Assembly (NCBI GenBank): GCA_950295325.1
Contig: OX485807.1
Coordinates: forward strand, 43,494,440 to 43,558,439
DNA: 64,000 nt
From: Polytrichum commune
Taxonomy: Eukaryota > Streptophyta > Polytrichopsida > Polytrichales > Polytrichaceae
Reading direction: 5' to 3'
The notes under the pieces are model-generated. The model saw nothing but the letters and a program-made list of their open reading frames with translations, ran no database searches and was not told the DNA's origin. Position numbers and translations under genes: made by a program. Shown here piece by piece: positions 16,867 through 55,468 of the stretch (the stretch's first letter is position 1; every line of letters starts with the position of its first letter).

Positions 16867-17070
16867 GGGTGGCTTAAACACAAAGTCTTAACTCGGGTCC
16901 CGTGAGAATTATGAGGTTAAGCCGCCTATGGCCGGAATAATACTTGGATGGGTGACTTCCCAACACTTGGTTTTTGGTGCACCCTATCATCAACGATCCA
17001 TCCAAACATAATGGGGATATATGGGTGAGCCGGATGATTTCAATCAACCATGTGGGAATCTAGGGGCTTG
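16867..17070 (+). mobile_element. 5S-rRNA-headed short repeat, copy 1
   Basis: Positions 16867-16985 resemble plant 5S rRNA in order and spacing: GAGGTTAAGCCGCCTATGG in the box A region, CTTGGATGGGTGACTTCC as box C, and a GTGCACCCT end that can pair with the GGGTGGC start. The first ~45 bases diverge from 5S. Homology with the second copy (minus strand, 22880-23079) continues about 85 bases past the 5S end and stops abruptly at the GGGTGGC start on the other side. So this is a transposed family with a 5S-like head, not a decayed 5S gene. Candidates are a 5S-derived SINE, or a fragment of a Cassandra-type TRIM, whose LTRs carry 5S sequence. The 3' limit is approximate. Confidence 0.65.
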
Positions 17071-18293
17071 CTGTTGGGAGGGATAGGTGTTGGCTGGCTT
17101 GTTTGTGGCCGTTCACGATGTTTGCCTTTGAAAAGAGGTGGTTGTCTTCAAAAGCCCTCTAAATCTCATAATGCATGTTTCGGGACTCCATATAGATTCA
17201 GACCAACTCGAAAAATGAAGCAACACCATCCTTCGCGCGAGTGGCAACATCAAATTCGTCCGTCTTTTCTTTCTTTATGCATCATTTTTCTTCTTCTTCT
17301 GAACTAGTGTTTTGGAACATGTATGGGAACCTTGTGGAACAAATTCTCCAACTTCTCTTACTTATTAGGGTTTATGTGATTAGAGTCATTGTAGTCTTGC
17401 ATTGTGCTCTCACTGGCTTGGATCCATGCATATGAATTATATATCCTAGATGATCATACACCCATGCACCTGTGCAACTATATGCCCATTCCCGTGCATA
17501 CTCGCCATACGTATCTATGCCCATGCACATGTTCATTACCCCTCCCCCCCTGCCCATGCCCACAACCTCACCCTAGTTTCCCCCACCTTTCCACATTTGT
17601 TTCCTCTTTCTTTTGTTATAATTTTCTTTTGGGAGGGACTCAAGATTTGACATGCGTTCCCTTTGAAAAACTAGTTGAAAATGTATACATCTTTCGTGGA
17701 CTCCCACCACCACGTTGTCCATTGTATATAAATTGTATTGTGGTAGGATAAAATACTTGAAGAGAAAGAGAACAAACTTGACTAAAGAAGAGAAGAAACA
17801 TGTTGTTTTCATTGCACATGTGCAATCCAACTGCGACACAACAATAACTTGCCAATGATTTCAACCAAGAGCACGTGGGAAAAATATTTGAAGAGATATT
17901 CAATTTTCCAAGTTAAAAAAAACCTAATGAAAATTATGCAATCAAGTGATGATCGGGAAAAAGTCAAGAGGACCAAGAAGCCATGTACCCAAAGCTAGAG
18001 TCAAATAATTTTGCATGGTTCAAGTAGGTGCATTTTTTTGCCATTGTCTTTCTAATTCAATTTATGTAATATGGATTCTAGCACTCGCTTGATTTGGCCT
18101 TCATTCAATGACAAGTTCGTTTGGTTTATGTTAGATTGTTCTCTTTCAGTTGGTATTCCAATCAAATGATTTTTCATTTTCAAAATTGCATCAAAGGCAA
18201 TTGTTTGAGTGATGAGATGCTAACAACAAAAGCCAATCAATTTCATAGTGCCTCTTTGGAACAAGTTGAACTCGATGAAACCAAATTGGATAA

Positions 18294-18310
18294 GTACAAG
18301 AATTTCAAGA
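18294..18310. repeat. Target duplication, left copy (17 bp)
   Basis: GTACAAGAATTTCAAGA is repeated exactly at 19398-19414, on the other side of the LINE insertion. Removing one copy and the insert restores an open frame across the CENP-B-type domain. Confidence 0.9.
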
Positions 18311-19397
18311 AGAAAAGAAAGAAAGAAAGAAAGAAAAATTACGCCTGTACATTGTACCGGCATGAATGTGAGCCCGTTATCGAAATGCTTAACACGGTGG
18401 ACCATGTTGTAGCATGAGGAGTTATGCCTCTTTTGGGAGGTGGGCTCTATTAGTTAAAAGGTCCATTCCCCTTTTTAGGGAGGTGTGACGGTCTTTTGTT
18501 TATTATCAAGTTTTTTTTTGTTTAGTACAAGATAGGTGAGGTATTTAATGGCATTTTGGTGTATGTTTTTCATGAGAGTTTTGATGCTAGTCTTTGGGAT
18601 TTTGAGGCCAGCTAGCTTTTCAATGGATTGTTCGTGTATCGCTCCTCTTACTCCTGTTGTAATAGTGATAAGGGGGTTCGTTTTCCAACCTTTGTTTTGT
18701 ATGGCGTTAATTAGTGGGTCATATTTTGAGTGTTTTTGTGTGAGGGCTTGTTCAGGGAATTTGTCATGACAATATGTGAATTCAATGAATTTTACTGTGT
18801 GAGTGTGTGAGGGTAGTAAGGGTGTTGGAGTGTGGTTTGGGGCTCCTAGTATACAGAGGATGTCATGTCTTAGTCTGGCTTGGCATTGGCAATTTGTTTG
18901 TGGGCATGTGCATTCTATGAGCCATTATGGGAGAGTTTGTTGTTGGTTGATGTTATTGAGGTTGCCTGCATTTGTTAGTGTGTAATATCGGGTGTATTTG
19001 TTGGCTTGTACTGCCTGAGTGATGAGGTGTACCGCGTTGTTGTGGCGGGCTATTCTTAGACCTTTCACAAAAGGATGTTCGCACATTGATAGTAAATGGG
19101 TCTCTGTCATTTTTGTGGCATAATGTGCAATTGGGGTTTTGGAATTTGAGAGGCCAAAAGATGTTTTTTTTGTGATTACCCATGTATTGGGCGTATCTAA
19201 ATTTTAATGTTTGGGTAATTTGGGCGTCCGTTACTTTTTTGTTTTTCCAGAAATGGTTGGAGAGTTTTTGATTTATTTTTTTGTTAGTTAGCCATTTTTC
19301 CACATATGGGAATTTGCGTTGGGCAATTACCATTTCGCGGTCGTTGTGTTCTTTTATTATAAAATTTGTGTATGTTTCTAATGGCTCCATCGTGTGT
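18311..19397 (-). mobile_element. 5'-truncated LINE with RNase-H-family tail (copy 1, 1,087 bp)
   Basis: Minus-strand insertion bounded by a 17-bp duplication. Reading on the minus strand: EMVIAQRKFPYVEKWL and then KFRYAQYMGNHKKNIF (frame at 19390-19112), a CTLCHKNDRD cysteine motif, a one-base frameshift, THLLSMC (completing CxxC...H...C), RHNNAVHLITQ, YYTLTNAGNLNN, one in-frame TAA near 18925, then IECTCPQTNCQCQARLRHD, VKFIEFTYCHDKF and a run to a stop near 18478. The 3' region ends in a TTTC-type microsatellite (GAAA on the plus strand, 18307-18336) at the duplication. The CxxC...HxxxC segment and C-terminal domain recur in the copies at 31 and 53 kb; the last also shows RNase H. Only the part after RNase H is present here. 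Least decayed of the three. Clade not assigned. Confidence 0.8.
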
Positions 19398-19414
19398 GTA
19401 CAAGAATTTCAAGA
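19398..19414. repeat. Target duplication, right copy (17 bp)
   Basis: Exact repeat of 18294-18310, marking the 5'-truncated end of the LINE. Confidence 0.9.
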
Positions 19415-19475
19415 TATCTAATGGATGGTTAGAGAAGTTCAAGGGGAGACAACATGTTGCTAGGTAAGCTCCTTC

Positions 19476-20155
19476 AAACTCTTAAACCCTAAACCCTATT
19501 ATTATTATTCTTATTATTCTTATAATTACTATTTGATAAGTATATCATGTTCATGTAGTTGCTTAATGTACTCTATTTCTACATTTTTGTTTTGAGGAAA
19601 ATGGTTATAGACATGATTGGATTGGTTGATTGTCATGCACTACCATAGGTGATAAGCACATTCAAGACTCTGGTTTTGAAATGGTTTAGGGTTTAGAGGT
19701 GACATATGGGATTTTACAAAGGTTCTAGCTGATACAAATGTGACACGTGCCACTCCTTGAAAATTGTGATGTTGATTTGGTAAGATCAAATTGAAGTGAA
19801 TCGACCCCCAACATGCATGAGACTAGTTCTTACTAAAACTCCTTCATCCATGATGGATGAGTTCAGGGTAGGAACACCTCCAACCAAGAAATTCAGATTT
19901 TTGGCATACATGTAGTAACCGTACAAGCTTGAAAAAACTATCCCCATGTAGAAAAAGAAAGATCATGCGTACTATAATTTCTTACCCCCATCATTGAAAG
20001 AAACACAAAAAAGTGAAGTGAATATGGTGTTGTCACCCAAAAGCATTGGAGGATTGGGGGGGGGGGGGGAGTGGAGGGATTGATGTTCACAAAGTGAACA
20101 TTCTCATAATGAACATGTACATCTTACGCAAGATATTGAGGGTGTCGGTTTCAAG
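19476..20155. other. No gene; short telomere-type motif and microsatellite
   Basis: TTAAACCCTAAACCCTATT at about 19482-19499 is two units of the Arabidopsis-type telomere repeat, too short to indicate a telomere, followed by an (ATT)n stretch. A 14-G run is at 20056-20069. It may include intron or 3' part of the pogo-like gene, but I could not read any catalytic motif. Confidence 0.5.
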
Positions 20156-20157
20156 AG

Positions 20158-20442
20158 ATGTCTTGGTTTAAGGCGCTCTTAGCTTACATAGCCGTCAATG
20201 CTCCAATGTTTGTATTTGGGGACCGTGTGGAGGTATATTTTGGGGTGAGTGTCGATTGGAATGGGAAGTTCAATTGTTTAGGGAGATTCCATGGCCCGAA
20301 GAAACATCAACCTTTGTCGTTGAAGCAAATAAAAATCTTTGGGGAGGAAATTAATGAAAGTGCACGCAATCCGGAGCACGACCCACCATTCGCCAATGCT
20401 TTCGAACAAATGGGCGCATGGGCCCTCGGCCCACTAACTTAA
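20158..20442 (+). CDS. Unassigned 94-codon open frame
   Basis: An ATG-started frame ending in TAA. The composition is protein-like (GDRVEVYFGVSVDWNGKF, then GRFHGPKKHQPLSLKQIK), with no repeats, signal peptide or membrane segment, and the local GC is a little higher than the surroundings. I do not recognise the family and see no splice context or neighbour that suggests a role. It could be a fragment of an unknown element or a chance frame; the minus strand is also partly open here. Confidence 0.2.
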   Translation: MSWFKALLAYIAVNAPMFVFGDRVEVYFGVSVDWNGKFNCLGRFHGPKKHQPLSLKQIKIFGEEINESARNPEHDPPFANAFEQMGAWALGPLT

Positions 20443-20779
20443 CCGTTGTTGGAAGAGCTTTAAGGTATAGTAGTGTTGTTGTAGTAGTGGTAGTAGTAGG
20501 AGTAGTAGGGCCAACTTGAAGCCTACTAGCTAGAAAAAAGGACACCCATAGATAGAGTAAAGTCCGTCTACATGGGAATTTCTTCTTGTGCATCCGTCCA
20601 CTACCACAATTACTTCCGTTGGTCGGTGACGGAAATGGCAAGTCAACTTGGAAGGGCCGTGGGCATTTGGATGATAAATGGGCTCAGAAAAAGTGGCAGT
20701 AGTAACGATGTTGTACTTGTGTGTCAGCCTCAATTATGAGGACTCACTCGTGATATGTAAGATATGTGGGCCACAATGA
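20443..20779. other. No recognisable gene; GTA/GTT microsatellite
   Basis: An imperfect TTG/TAG trinucleotide run lies at about 20474-20510. Otherwise nothing is recognised before the minisatellite. Confidence 0.55.
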
Positions 20780-20797
20780 ATGGGGAGAGCCGACCGC

Positions 20798-21713
20798 TAC
20801 ACCCTACCCTCCGTAAAACCTTTCCCTCTCTTATATCCCCCAAACCCTAGGGAATGTATGTGCTTGGGTTACTTCTCCCTCGCCTTGATGCCACACCGTT
20901 ACACCCTACCCTCCACAATGTCATTCTCTCTCTTATATCCCCAAAACCTTAGGGAACATATGTGCTTGGGTTACTTCTCCCTCGCCTTGTTGCCACACCG
21001 CTACACCCTACCCTCCGCAATGCCATTCTCTCTCTTATATCCCCAAAACCCTAGGGAACGGATGTGCTCGGGATACTTCTCTCTCGCCTTGTTGCCACCC
21101 GCTACACCCTACCCTATGTAATGTCACTCCCTCTCTTATATCCCCAAAACCCTAGGGAACGGATGTGCTCGGGTTACTTCTCCCTCGCCTTGTTGCCACA
21201 TTGCTACACCCTACCCTCTGTAATGTCATTCTTTCTCTTATATCCCCAAAACCCTAGGGAACGGATGTGCTCGGGTTACTTCTCCCTCTCCTTGTTGCCA
21301 CACCCCTACACCTTACCCTCCGTAATGTCAGTCCCTCTCTTATATCCCCAAAACCCTAGGGAACGGATGTGCTCGGGTTACTTCTCCCTCTCCTTGTTGC
21401 CACACCCCTACACCTTACCCTCCGTAATGTCAGTCCCTCTCTTATATCCCCAAAACCCTAGGAACGGATGTGCTCGGGTTACTTCTCCCTCTCCTTGTTG
21501 CCACACCCCTACACCCTACCCTCCGTAATGTCATTCCCTCTCTTATATCCCCAAAACCCTAGGGAACGGATGTGCTCGGGTTACTTCTCCCTCTCCTTGT
21601 TGCCACACCCCTACACCCTACCCTCCGTAATGTCAATCCCTCTCTTATATCCCCAAAACCCTAGGGAACAGATGTGCTCGGATTACTTCTCCCTCTCCTT
21701 GTGGCCACATTTT
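20798..21713 (+). repeat. Nine-copy 102-bp minisatellite
   Basis: Nine head-to-tail units of 102 bp, two of them shortened by one base (near 21097 and 21462). Each unit contains CTTATATCCCCAAAACCCTA followed by GGGAACGGATGTGCTCGGG. The unit is 34 codons long and has one stop-free frame (TLPSVMSFPLLYPQNPRE, then RMCSGYFSLALLPHR), so long open frames arise automatically at 20780-21121, 21064-21528 and 21468-21737, broken by the two 1-base losses. Units 4-9 are most alike, suggesting recent expansion. I see no promoter or family that would make it a gene, and the open frame alone is weak evidence. Confidence 0.9.
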
Positions 21714-22230
21714 CTTTTCATGTATCATGGGTTTTGACATTAAAATAATCCACCAAAGAATTCAAACGACCACGTGCAAACGACACACTCGCACGCATCA
21801 CATTGTCATTATTGCAATGTTGACATTATGTTATTTCATGATGTCACATGGCACTCAATTTGTCTGTTGTCACATGTCCATGTTAACTTTGCATATCTCC
21901 TTAACATCACATGCACTTTGGTTGTCAAAGGTGTGATAATAAGGAAGTTAGAGTGTAGTTGCAAATGATCATGTTGGGTTTGAGAAGTAATTGATTGAAG
22001 ATCAAAACTTCAGGAAAATCGCCAGTCATTTAAAAGGAATCTATAGAATATACTCCAAATTAATCAAGAAGAATTGAACGATCACAACATGTAACTGATT
22101 GGACTTGGAACCGCTAGGCTTTTGATTGAATCTACCTAAAAAATCTCCACATACATTGGTGGGCTTTACTATGTGGTCACTCTTCTTAATTCAACACCTA
22201 CTACATAGGCATAATTCATTGATGTGATAA
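21714..22230. other. No recognisable gene
   Basis: AT-rich sequence with two overlapping short frames (21727-21968). I recognise nothing in them. Confidence 0.5.
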
Positions 22231-22537
22231 GGGTGGGGTTTACACTAGGGTCCAAGATCAAAGACACTCCGAAATCAAGCAATCCTTGGTTAAGGACAAA
22301 ATGGGACCCAAGGAGTTTACACTAGGCTTTGGGTCAAACGTATGGGAAAATAAAAGTGGTGCCAATGTGGCATCATTTGCTTTCCAAATCTCGTCATTCT
22401 CAACTCAAGTAAATACTCCTCCAAATTTGGATAATCAATCTTCAAACTTGGGTATGACTTGAATATGAAAATAAGGTATGTTAAGGGGTGTTGGGATCCC
22501 AAGTTTCATGGACTTGGATCCAAATGTAAACCCTCCT
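22231..22537. mobile_element. MITE with inverted ends (~307 bp)
   Basis: The left end GGGTGGGGTTTACACTAGGG, continuing TCCAAG, is mirrored by the right end, whose complement reads AGGAGGGTTTACATTTGGAT then CCAAG. The flanks are TAA (22228-22230) and CAA, one mismatch from a Tourist-type duplication. An internal copy of the terminal motif (GAGTTTACACTAGGC) lies near 22315. Non-coding. Confidence 0.6.
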
Positions 22538-22879
22538 CAAGTGCTTGCCCTTCTAGTGGACCCCTTTCAACTCCACAAATAATTTGGGATGTGGTATTAG
22601 ATTGGGAATTGTCTCATCTAGTCAATTTTTGTGACTTTGCACGTAGATTCTCAATTTAAATCTTGCATTCAAGGTAATGAATATTTATAAAAGGTACCAG
22701 ATGTCAAAGTGAATATTTCTTAACTCTTTAAAAGAAAGAAAAAACGTGCTATTTCATCTTCGCAATTGGTTCAAGTCTATATGTAATCCTCAAACAAACA
22801 TTACCATAATTACGAGGTTTTTGACGACTATTACCTCGTTTTAGAGCTGAACACTTTGAACACACTCAGACAAGTCGGG

Positions 22880-23079
22880 CTGCACCTCTCTCCCATATGG
22901 ATGGTTGAAAATATCCAGTTCACTCGGACAACCCCACTGTGGTTGGGTGGACCGTAGGTGGTAGGGTGCATCATAGGTCAAGTGCTATGTAGGTCTCCCA
23001 TCCAAATATTATTTGAGATTTAGGCGGCTTGGAGTTCCCATGGAGGTCCGGGTCAAGATATTTGAATTAAGCCACCCTC
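22880..23079 (-). mobile_element. 5S-rRNA-headed short repeat, copy 2
   Basis: The complement of 22963-23079 starts GAGGGTGGCTTAATTCAAAT, carries GGAACTCCAAGCCGCC and ATTTGGATGGGAGACC (5S box A and box C equivalents) and ends GATGCACCCT. The body beyond it (plus-strand 22880-22962) aligns with 16986-17070: GGTCCACCCAACCACAGTGG against GATCCATCCAAACATAATGG. Sequence on the other side of the GGGTGGC start shares nothing with copy 1, so the element begins at its 5S-like head. Divergence is too high for it to be a working 5S gene. Confidence 0.65.
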
Positions 23080-30987: not shown

Positions 30988-31801
30988 GATATATAAAAGG
31001 AACATCAAAGTTTTTGCATTAACATGTGATGTATATTCACCACTTTCGACCTACCTCCATAGGGACATAGGGCAAGGGTGGCGGAGTTCCTATTTTCATA
31101 TGTGGATTGTTGGTTAGTGTCAGCGTGTTTGTAGGTGTCCAATTTAGTTGAGTGGTATAGGGGCTTGTTTATTTTCTAGTTTTCATTTGTTTAAGATAGT
31201 ATGGTCATCTAATGGCTAATTTTTAGAATGTTTCCATTAGTTTATGGATTTTAGTGGTAGGGATATGGAGATCTTGTAGTTGTTTGGTGGTTGTAGTCTC
31301 AAATTCCCGCTATGAGGATGATGGGTGGGAGTATTGACCATCCTAGTTGGGTTAGTTTTGTTTGTAGGGTGGCATATTTCACGAGTTTATGGCGGTAGCT
31401 TTGGTGGGGAATCTATCATTACAATAGGTAAATTCATGTACTTGCACTTTGAGGTTCATGTTCGCGGGCTTGGGGGGGGGGGGGGGCTCTTAATATGCAT
31501 AAAATATATGGTCAGGAGGCATGGCAAGTGCACCATGGTAGGAGGCATGTGCATGGGAGTAACCATGATGGTATTGTCGGTGTATGTTCGCTGTATTTGT
31601 TGGCATTATTGATGTGAAACATCTTATTGTGGGGTGGGCTAACAATATGTTTGTTGATGCGTGTGTTGCTTCGTTGTGATGGTTGGTCCTTAGATAATTA
31701 ATGTGACTATTTGTACAACATGATAGTTGACAGAGACATGTTTTGGTTTGTTTGGATGTACATAGACTCCAAAACGGGAAATGTCTTACTTGAGGTTATG
31801 T
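30988..31801 (-). mobile_element. 5'-truncated LINE, copy 2 (814 bp)
   Basis: Minus-strand insertion with a 16-bp duplication. The minus-strand translation keeps the order of the 18.3-kb copy but is very degraded: NSHIN...RTNHHNEATHAST then a CFTS..MPTNTANIHRQ block equivalent to RHNNAVHLITQ...YYTLTNAGN, further on a CPxH-rich stretch, and finally a KCKYMNLPIV block equivalent to KFIEFTYCHD. A 15-G run (31472-31486) lies within it. Only the region after RNase H is present. Two independent insertions of one family with duplications of 16 and 17 bp support target-primed retrotransposition. Confidence 0.65.
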
Positions 31802-53217: not shown

Positions 53218-55260
53218 TGTGAAAAAGAAAGAAAAGAACAGGAATATCATTGTTTTACATTGACATGCGAGGTCCAACCACCATCTCCGACCCCCAATCA
53301 TGTGGCCATGGGAAGGGGTGGGAGTGGCTTAATGCGTGTCACCGCAAGTGGACTGTTTGTTAGTTGTAGGTATGTTTTGGGTTTCATAGTTGATTTAAGT
53401 CCAATAGGACTAGGGTTTATTTCTTTTCTAGTGTTCTTTTTGTTTAGAATAATGTTTGTTAGGTATTTTATGGCAATTTGTGAGAAGATCTATGTTGAAT
53501 TACATGTTTTAGATGTGCGGTTGGAGGTATTGAAGGTGTCAAAGGTTGTTGTGTGTATGGCTCCTCAAATTCATGTTGTGATGGTGATGGGTGGTAGTAC
53601 TTCCCATCTGATTTGGACTAAGAGTAGGAGGATGATAGGGTATTTTCCAAGTTGCGGGTTGTGGCTTCTATATGGATTCGACTATATGCACTTTGTAGTA
53701 TGTGAATTCGACTATTTGCACTTTGAAATTTGGGCTAGGCACAAAGGGTGGTTTGGATATAGGGGAGCACCTAATATGCATAGTATGTGTGGTCTAAGTC
53801 GCGTGGGGCATTTGTATCTTCGAAGGTAGCAAGTGCATGGTAGTAGCCATGGGGGTGGGTGTTCTCATATGTGCGGTCTTTGAATTCATTGGCGTTTACG
53901 AGTGTAAAACATCGTGTGGTGGGGTGGGCAAGAAGTTTTGTTTTGTTGTGTGTGCGTGTGTGTTGTTTTGTTGTGCCTACAAGTGCATAGGTTATTTATG
54001 TGTTGTTTTGTGCAATATGATAGCAAGTGTGATTTTGTTGGGTTTTACATAGTTGTGATTTTTTTATAAAATTTTTTAATCTTAATTTTAACTTTTTTTT
54101 TTCCTTGGGTGATAGTTTCGTAGATATCTCTCATAGCGGACTTTCAATATTTCATAAGTCGCGCATATGTTATCCAGGGGGGCATCCCAAAATAGGTTTG
54201 ATCATTTATGGTGGATGTCGGAGTTGGATAGCCCTTCGTTTACATAAGGGAGAGTGTTCTTTTGCATGGGAAATTGTGGCACTTACATGTTCATTTTCAA
54301 TGTATCTTTTTAGGTTTCAGACCGAAGCATCATGTTATAGGGAGGTTGGGGAATTGATGGCTAGTATGTGTTTGGTGTCCAATAAGGTGGAAGGGGGTGG
54401 CCATGATACATGGGGCTTGCACTTATTTATTGGGCCAATTTATCAACTTCTTCATTGCCAAATATGTTTGTGTATGCCCTAACTTTGTGAATGGTGATAT
54501 TATGGGAGGAGATTTTTATTGTATTTATGGTGCGAATAATGAGGAGTTTGTCAGGGTGGTAAAATTATGAGGAGGAATGTTTGATGCGGTTGAGTAGAAG
54601 GTATATTCTATTTGAATTGTTAGTGAATATGAAGGTATTTGTGGTAAGCATTTTGGTTTGTTCAATTGCTAATAGCAAAGCATATAATTTAGTGCAGAGG
54701 ATGTTTGGGTATCCGGGTAGGCAAGCGGCAATGTTGAGTTGTAGCAGGCTATTGTATACTCATGAACATGCTATTTGTCGTTACCTTCACTGTCCATGTA
54801 GTATGGTTATATGGATGGTGGGACGGGCTTGGGGGGGGGGGGATTAAATGGGTGGTTGGGTTGAATGCCATGTTTTTGGGAATTTGGTAAGTGGTGTGAT
54901 TGTTTATAGGGGTGGTATGATGGGGTAAGTGGTGCATTTAGATAGGAGTGAGTTAGGGTGGTCTTGTAAGAAGGTATGTATCAAGGGTGGGTCGGGGTTG
55001 TGGGAGATTAGTAGGATGAAGATGAGTTAGGGTTCTTTAGTTTGGTAGTATGTTGGAGGGTTGATGATACGGGGTATTGCATAAGTGAGGAGGGGGGGGG
55101 GGATGGTGATTATAGGTGTAGTATGGGTTTGTTGGAGTGGGTGAATGTCCACATGTCATGTGGAATGGTGATGTTTGTTGTGGAATTATGGGTGGTGTGG
55201 GTGGCAAGTCTTGCCCATTGACTTTTGAGAGGAGTCTGAGTTATGTTGAGTGGGCTAACC
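53218..55260 (-). mobile_element. RNase-H-bearing LINE, copy 3 (longest)
   Basis: Minus strand, 5' to 3': TPLKSQWARLATHTTHNS (about 55200, possibly the region after RT), then RNase H with ALLLAIEQTKMLTTNTFIFT and NNSNRIYLLLNRIKHSSS (about 54560-54690) and HKVRAYTNIFGNEEVDKLAQ (54432-54490). Further on, FKVQIVEFTYYKVHIVE (about 53690-53740) is equivalent to VKFIEFTYCHDKF in copy 1. The second RNase H Asp (FTDS in the family) is Asn here, and many stops are present. The plus-strand left edge has a GAAA-rich run (53220-53236) like the tail of copy 1. The 5' edge and a target duplication were not found. G runs at 54831-54842 and 55092-55102. Confidence 0.7.
54432..54700 (-). pseudogene. RNase H domain of the LINE
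   Basis: Shows LYALLLAIEQ (around the conserved Glu helix), FIFTNN (family FTDS) and KVRAYTNIFGNEEVDKLA (family KVxAHxGIxGNExADxLA). Two frames are needed, and a stop separates HSSS from FYHPDKLLIIRTI. Removes RNA from RNA-DNA hybrids in intact elements; dead here. Confidence 0.7.
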
Positions 55261-55468
55261 ATGCCATGTCCATTGAATAGAGAATGTTGGGCCTAGTGAG
55301 CCAAAAATGATGTCTCTTTCATATGGGGAGTGATATTGTAAGAAAATTGTGGGGAATGTAAGTGGATTGGAGAAGTATGAGTGGGTTGGTTGGAAGGTTT
55401 GCAGAGGTTATCTAATATTGGTTGTGGTAGTATATGGTGGTGTGGACAATACTCTGATGGTGTGGACG

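Follow-up and report, generated by a model that had tools for sequence, protein, structure and literature searches.

Introduction

Short interspersed elements (SINEs) with a 5S ribosomal RNA (rRNA)-derived head, known as SINE3, have been described from vertebrates and insects (PMC7245038), with a further case reported in Aspergillus (PMC5063351). For land plants, a 5S-bearing retroelement has been described in the form of Cassandra (PMC10886601, PMC10853983), a terminal-repeat retrotransposon in miniature (TRIM). PMC3095306 counts 5S-homologous sequences "including plants" among SINE3, its reference being the Cassandra paper. As to the origin of Cassandra, PMC10886601 speculates that a SINE3 landed in a long terminal repeat (LTR), and PMC10853983 favours capture of the 5S promoter region from 5S arrays. 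The relation of SINEs to long interspersed elements (LINEs) in land plants is called controversial in PMC3747384, which presents three matched pairs and holds that flowering plants contain almost only L1 LINEs. Here we analyse two repeats in a 64,000-nucleotide stretch of the Polytrichum commune genome (contig OX485807.1 of assembly GCA_950295325.1, positions 43,494,440 to 43,558,439; hereafter the window). Very probably they are dead remnants of a retrotransposon of the SINE3 type, about 394 bp long without its tail, that would have been transcribed by RNA polymerase III (Pol III) and mobilised by a LINE.

Results

The two repeats, copies a and b, were searched for with a profile of their family (nhmmer), which matches the window at 16867-17260 (copy a, E 1e-112) and at 23077-22735 on the reverse strand (copy b, E 4.7e-76); the next match reaches only E 0.24. 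This bears out the existence and kinship of the repeats proposed by the first-pass annotation, which had placed the start of copy b at 23079, where the profile places it at 23077, and had described an element of about 200 bp with homology running about 85 bp past the 5S part. The element is about 400 bp long, and blastn aligns the two copies over 363-370 columns at 63% identity. Identity to the family consensus is 83% for copy a and 76% for copy b, in which the terminal stem-loop and about 24 bp of body sequence are missing. Copy b was also considered as a separate subfamily; this was rejected, and it is regarded as an old, deleted copy because its best non-self matches are 68-84% identical and mostly partial.

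Searching the whole genome (407.8 Mb) with copy a, with 40 of 1,497 first-look candidates scored, gave 41 matches of 73-100% identity (100% being copy a itself), 36 of which span from query base 3 or earlier to base 380 or later of 414. A common start among these matches is uninformative by itself because the query began at 16867. The 39 other loci, two of the matches falling in one of them (L041), were taken with their flanks and aligned with both window copies. The resulting 41-sequence alignment is sharp at GGGTGGC on one side and at GTCGTC-TTTC on the other, so that the abrupt stop of homology at the first base of the head, seen at first in the two window copies, holds for 39 further loci. 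The majority base is shared by about 0.2-0.6 of the rows in the ten upstream columns and by at least 0.8 over GGGTGGC, and 37 of the 39 loci, whose flanks are unrelated, start no more than 3 nt from query base 1. Pairwise scores among the 100-base upstream flanks of the 41 copies have a maximum of 34 and a median of 17 (820 pairs). A permissive pairwise alignment of copies a and b ran about 75 bases upstream of the head; their 100-base upstream flanks score 20, which is shuffle level (mean 20.9; 589 of 1,000 shuffles reach 20) and ordinary among the 820 flank pairs. At the 3' end, conservation drops off after GTCGTC and then TTTCTTTC. About 275 bp behind the head are common to family members, and the element consists of a 119-bp 5S-derived head, a body, a short stem-loop end and a (TTTC)n tail, with a core of 394 bp.

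Pattern counts over the whole assembly, in both orientations and with up to 3 mismatches, found 713 and 1,028 places, the latter with a 24-base core pattern, and none with the reversed patterns; diverged copies such as copy b escape both counts. The family therefore has about 1,000 or more dispersed copies. A 37-base pattern of the 3' end occurs at 264 places in the genome (control, 0). The 39 loci had been selected by likeness to copy a; for a less selected sample, 20 places were picked by hand, not at random, from the 65 exact matches listed for the first pattern. Dimeric or overlapping head-to-tail copies occur at L041 (C5:41418948-41420304) and L057 (C1:30979832-30980832), and matches to the 3'-end pattern are paired at C6:30884291/30884486 and C4:4091301/4091617.

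The consensus head scores 100 in local alignment with the host 5S gene (from L001), against a maximum of 33 in 1,000 dinucleotide shuffles and a score of 20 or less for windows of the element body, which upholds the 5S-like head claimed from the window. Aligned with the Arabidopsis 5S sequence, copy a alone scores 58 (maximum of 500 mononucleotide shuffles, 32) and copy b alone 34 (shuffle maximum, 30), the latter being marginal by itself. The host and Arabidopsis 5S sequences are about 84% identical, which suggests a host remote from the flowering plants, perhaps a moss. The head scores 88 with the host 5S, 72 with the Arabidopsis 5S and 64 with the 5S mimic of transcription factor IIIA (TFIIIA) genes; this mimic was rejected as the source of the head because the host 5S scores higher. 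Numbered on the host 5S string, which starts about one base early and so shifts positions by about one, the head is identical at 15 of 26 (positions 1-26), 18 of 23 (27-49), 14 of 15 (65-79) and 12 of 22 positions (98-119). The intermediate element (67-72) is identical at all 6 positions and the box C region (80-97) at 16 of 18; together they form the best-kept stretch of the head, and box A is less clear. Names and positions of the boxes are those of plant 5S genes. To judge from the sequence, such a pattern would be expected of a promoter that was retained with no role as rRNA.

To score target duplications, the 5' flank was aligned locally with the sequence following the core, and all mismatched copy pairs served as the control. 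A score of at least 9 was reached by 8 of 39 copies and 8 of 1,482 mismatched pairs. Among the less selected places the numbers are 2 of 20 and 2 of 380, and, when abutment to the head was required, 9 of 54 copies and 11 of 2,862 mismatched pairs. The 54 copies are those of the 39-locus set plus 15 of the 20 less selected ones; L074, L075, L076, L079 and L087 (identity 0.79 or lower) were left out of this set and of the age count, L041 out of the 39-copy and 54-copy tests and the age count, and copy b out of both duplication tests. Clear duplications are roughly 8-18 bp long and sit at both outer borders of the element, where the flanks meet the head and the tail; those at L022, L020, L015, L011, L012, L071 and L086 measure 10-18 bp. 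The common 3' end, the tail and the target duplications that the first-pass annotation proposed to look for in the genome were all found, and its reading of a transposed element beginning at the 5S head agrees with the fixed start in unrelated flanks, the tail and the duplications. With respect to age, the mean divergence of 55 copies from the consensus is 14.7% (13.1% outside CpG and 39.7% at the 24 CpG positions), and the median pair among them is 22.6% apart. Because even the closest pair differs by 14.6%, the family looks long extinct.

A reverse-transcriptase (RT) search, scoring the best 150 of 2,620 candidates, supplied 12 LINE downstream regions, which sort into three homology groups. 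In the group of L067-L069, homology reaches about 3,760 nt past the RT and ends in ...AATTCACGCCGGTATT..ATACGGGCGTTATTTTTTCTTTTC; the SINE ends in ...AATTCACGCCGGTGGCAACATCGGAGTCGTC(TTTC)n. The last 35 nt or so of the SINE, together with its tail, resemble the LINE 3' end, of which a consensus was built from twenty further LINE ends. AATTCACGCCGGT is common to both at equal distance from the tail, and both ends fold into a hairpin just before it. Counted by eye, the hairpin forms at the same place in 22 of 23 LINE ends (L105 does not form it, and it is shortened in L097 and L098), and both partners of a base pair are altered in L069, L099, L100 and L103. Comparison of L061-L066 with the SINE 3' end is weak because the true 3' end of that group is undefined. 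The LINE group includes four other 3' ends at 98-99% identity.

A LINE frame from C5:33407885 (L090, L067) matches an apurinic/apyrimidinic endonuclease (APE)-type domain (PF14529, 1.8e-7), RVT_1 (6.8e-33) and ribonuclease H (RNase H; PF00075, 6.1e-15). By RT similarity this candidate partner LINE is not L1-like, because among solved structures its RT is nearer to R2 (115 bits) than to human L1 (63 bits), whereas in the control, a LINE from the same assembly that ends in poly(A), the RT is nearer to L1 (149 against 81). A decayed 3' part of a LINE of this putative partner family is found between the two SINE copies, where the LINE C-terminal protein matches by tblastn at 19363-19100 (75%, E 7e-39) and 19131-18478 (67%, E 1.6e-90). 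More divergent C-terminal LINE fragments lie at 53406-55404 and 31153-31658, both on the reverse strand, with 29-55% identity over their main stretches and 80% in one 15-residue piece. In L067 (C5:33411394-33415594) and L068, a PCIF1_WW match behind the RT stays below the Pfam threshold (28.3 and 27.8 bits; cut-off, 31.1), and neither an NPP[FYW] nor a DPP[YFW] motif was found in L067.

The shared 3' sequence is short, the ends examined comprise the 12 regions in three groups and the 20 more of one group, and at least one other repeat of the genome ends in a hairpin with a T-rich (TTC)n tail. These points would favour a 5S-headed SINE moved by a different LINE, or through recognition of the T-rich tail alone. 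We consider this unlikely, since SINE and candidate LINE have the same 13-nt word at the same offset within the same hairpin layout and the tail type matches that of the LINE copy in the window.

A second SINE family in the genome, young and tRNA-like (L042, C2:11360323-11361441; L112-L127), has a terminal hairpin and a T/C-rich tail. Sixteen of its copies were used for the consensus, which is about 350 bp long. The family is called tRNA-like for what we take to be box A and box B motifs; in L042, no tRNA was detected by ARAGORN. Both SINEs have, immediately after the head, a 32-column module, ACCACCT(A)T.GTCCACCCAA..AT.GTGGGGG, with a score of 41 that none of 1,000 mononucleotide shuffles reach (maximum, 39). 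The rest of the two bodies has no detectable relation. Copies of the tRNA-like SINE are 91-96% identical to that of L042 and hence younger than the 5S SINE. They end in a hairpin beginning TCACGC followed by a T-rich tail, a likeness to the ends of the 5S SINE and the LINE that is one of layout only. In L042 the tRNA-like SINE neighbours a 5S pseudogene, and a composite of the two was considered. A search with L042 (40 of 1,495 candidates scored) returned 41 matches including L042 itself; the 40 others begin behind the 5S, the 39 full ones at about query base 122-151. The composite was rejected and the neighbourhood is taken as accidental for this reason.

A search for 5S-like sequences, with 47 of 15,430 candidates scored, returned 29 best matches, 12 of at least 98 bits, which were taken as 5S genes, and 17 weaker ones. 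Two of the strong matches (L001, L002) and all the weaker ones (15 loci) were read, and four of these loci resemble TFIIIA genes that carry a 5S mimic. Sequence beyond the 5S is common to L001 and L002 (about 1.7 kb), to L051 and L053 (950 bp, a segmental duplicate), to L044 and L048 (about 140 bp) and to L046 and L054 (a separate 97-bp stretch). In L002, a fragment of the SINE 3' part lies about 1.3 kb away from the 5S. Dispersed 5S pseudogenes do occur in this genome, as at L042-L048, L050, L051, L053 and L054, which could suggest that the window repeats are such pseudogenes or spacer fragments and belong to no mobile family. This is highly improbable: what the pseudogenes have in common is the 5S and, for a few pairs, additional sequence, never the SINE body, which does not directly follow the 5S in L001 or L002 either, and the family is marked by its common 275 bp or so after the head, by a fixed tail and by target duplications.

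Less probable still is that the copies are solo LTRs or fragments of Cassandra, land-plant 5S-bearing retroelement though it is, for the 5S lies at the first base of the element and not within an LTR, clear target duplications measure roughly 8-18 bp and not the 5 bp of plant LTR elements, the element finishes in a T-rich tail and lacks TG...CA ends, the copies are single save for some dimers or overlapping pairs (L041, L057), and no direct repeats flank the 5S in the 13 non-TFIIIA 5S-like loci compared by blastn (L001 and L002 alone have direct repeats, on one side) or in the four TFIIIA-like loci inspected by eye. In the loci read, neither TG...CA LTR ends nor paired copies around the 5S part were found. 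The test by which Cassandra and a SINE were to be told apart thus decided for a SINE, there being no homology upstream of GGGTGGC and Cassandra being set aside because no LTR pairs were seen. Only the best 5S candidates were scored, and a rare Cassandra could therefore be missed.

Several other 5S-related loci were met with. At L044 (C1:27314007-27315125) and L048 (C2:64754199-64755316), 5S pseudogenes run straight into the 3' end of a different repeat, which ends in a hairpin and a (TTC)n tail. A second 5S-headed family was considered here and rejected: all 20 relatives of the shared sequence that were examined are without a preceding 5S (best scores, 14-25), and for this reason the sequence is assigned to the 3' end of another repeat. 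The two loci may be template-switch joints of 5S RNA with a LINE-like 3' end and lie outside the present SINE family; an event of this kind could found a 5S SINE. The TFIIIA-like genes with a 5S-like mimic are L049 (C2:59433093; its C2H2 exon reads RPYTCPVENCGKSYKRQDHLNRHS), L052 (C7:14287627), L055 (C4:54347259) and L056 (C1:23658434). The mimic of plant TFIIIA genes is known as a single one and as a land-plant feature; in three of these four loci it is present twice, about 184 bp apart. High-scoring 5S genes at C3:24068742, 24082519 and 24112633 are about 13.8 and 30.1 kb apart and form no tight tandem array. A 5.8S search for linkage of 5S to 35S rDNA gave two matches, neither near a 5S match. 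Apart from these, a search of the genome for chlorophyll a/b-binding sequences, with 74 candidates scored, gave 58 matches at E <= 0.001, as befits a green plant; of 14 control genomes, Synechococcus alone responded. Among the matches, 14 of equal score cluster within about 95 kb at C5:1751760-1846160.

Table 1. Coordinates of the SINE copies, their parts and the intervening LINE remnant in the window
Feature	Position	Strand	Remarks
SINE copy a	16867..17276	+	core at 16867-17260, followed by a T-rich tail ending near 17276 (tail motif match, 17260-17279)
Copy a, 5S rRNA-derived head	16867..16985	+	alignment to 5S
Copy a, box A-like part of 5S internal control region	16914..16927	+	read from sequence
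Copy a, intermediate element (GGCCGG)	16930..16935	+	read from sequence
Copy a, box C-like part of 5S internal control region	16947..16961	+	read from sequence
Copy a, body module directly behind head, common to tRNA-like SINE family	16986..17018	+	module found between the two family consensuses; its place in copy a read from sequence
SINE copy b, older, with T-rich tail	22730..23077	-	profile match and tail motif; tail motif located at 22749-22726
Copy b, 5S rRNA-derived head	22963..23077	-	sequence comparison to 5S
Decayed 3' part of putative partner-family LINE, between the two SINE copies	18306..19363	-	
3' end of window LINE	18306..18368	-	ATTCATGCCGGT, hairpin-like stretch, (TTTC)n tail like that of the SINE

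Discussion

The Polytrichum element resembles SINE3 in its 5S-derived head with internal promoter boxes, its unrelated body, its LINE-like 3' end, its target duplications of variable length and its dispersed, mostly single short copies. The 5S head stands at the 5' terminus, and the 3' end common to a LINE is present in a short form (13 nt, hairpin and tail). The element differs from known SINE3 in that its head fits the 5S type of its own plant host, which points to an independent origin, in that a body module is common to a tRNA-like SINE of the same genome, and in that its candidate partner is a plant LINE with APE, RT and RNase H. It is like the Cassandra TRIM in carrying a 5S internal promoter in a land plant; in Cassandra, however, the 5S lies inside the LTRs, whereas here it is terminal and no LTRs were seen. 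TRNA-headed SINEs (SINE2), as represented by the family in the same genome, are comparable in size class, body module and the hairpin with a T-rich end, but the head here is 5S and not tRNA-like. In stringent-type SINE/LINE pairs, too, the SINE ends like the 3' terminus of its LINE, although only about 35 nt and the tail are alike here. From the three plant pairs of PMC3747384, the present pair differs by a partner LINE that is not L1-like.

The features above are consistent with the following course of retrotransposition. Within the head, TFIIIA and TFIIIC would occupy the internal control region derived from 5S, and Pol III would start at the first base of the element; by such a start, each copy would bring its promoter along. 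The transcript would end in a short stem-loop and a (UUUC)n tail, like the 3' end of the APE/RT/RNase H LINE, and the reverse transcriptase of this LINE would recognise that end. Target-primed reverse transcription would then insert the RNA and give rise to the target duplications of roughly 8-18 bp. We infer Pol III transcription from the 5S promoter, on the strength of the head sequence, and mobilisation by an APE/RT/RNase H LINE of the same genome.

A number of results weigh against a SINE3 driven by this LINE. The SINE and LINE 3' ends have only a short sequence in common: disregarding position, 3 of 2,000 mononucleotide shuffles score as high as its 13 bases, and another LINE, L063, attains an equal score of 13 at an arbitrary place. 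The tRNA-like SINE has a similar terminal hairpin, but no significant sequence likeness links its 3' end to that of the 5S SINE (912 of 1,000 shuffles reach the score), and the stretch that best fits the LINE end is not part of the hairpin (46 of 2,000 shuffles). At neither window copy was a convincing target duplication found, and 45 of the 54 copies score below 9, which is expected of old copies and is no proof. In the less selected sample, only about 10 of the 20 places retain the 5' head by eye, the rest being truncated or rearranged. As for the head, Rfam makes no 5S call at gathering level in the window and none at E <= 0.1 in six other copies, which thus have no covariance model match of the kind that a functional 5S rRNA gene has. 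The box A region (positions 50-64) matches the host 5S at only 10 of 15 positions, so that, where the first-pass annotation saw a recognisable box A and box C, box C stands and box A is less certain.

The SINE3-type element would be ordinary in its mechanism; within the literature searched, it is unreported in plants. No plant SINE3 was found in that literature, most subscription journals and Repbase lying outside its scope, so that novelty is unproven. On balance we favour, with some reserve, the view that this is the first plant SINE3, its head taken from the 5S of the host lineage and joined to a module of a tRNA-like SINE, and that it was probably driven by a non-L1 RNase H LINE through the 3' hairpin. 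If this is true, 5S-headed SINEs can arise in plants, as the proposal of a SINE3 origin for Cassandra requires, and a plant SINE3 makes the route from SINE3 into an LTR testable. The candidate SINE/LINE pair, with its 3' hairpin and non-L1 LINE, would together with the second SINE built on the same module provide a case of modular SINE birth in plants.

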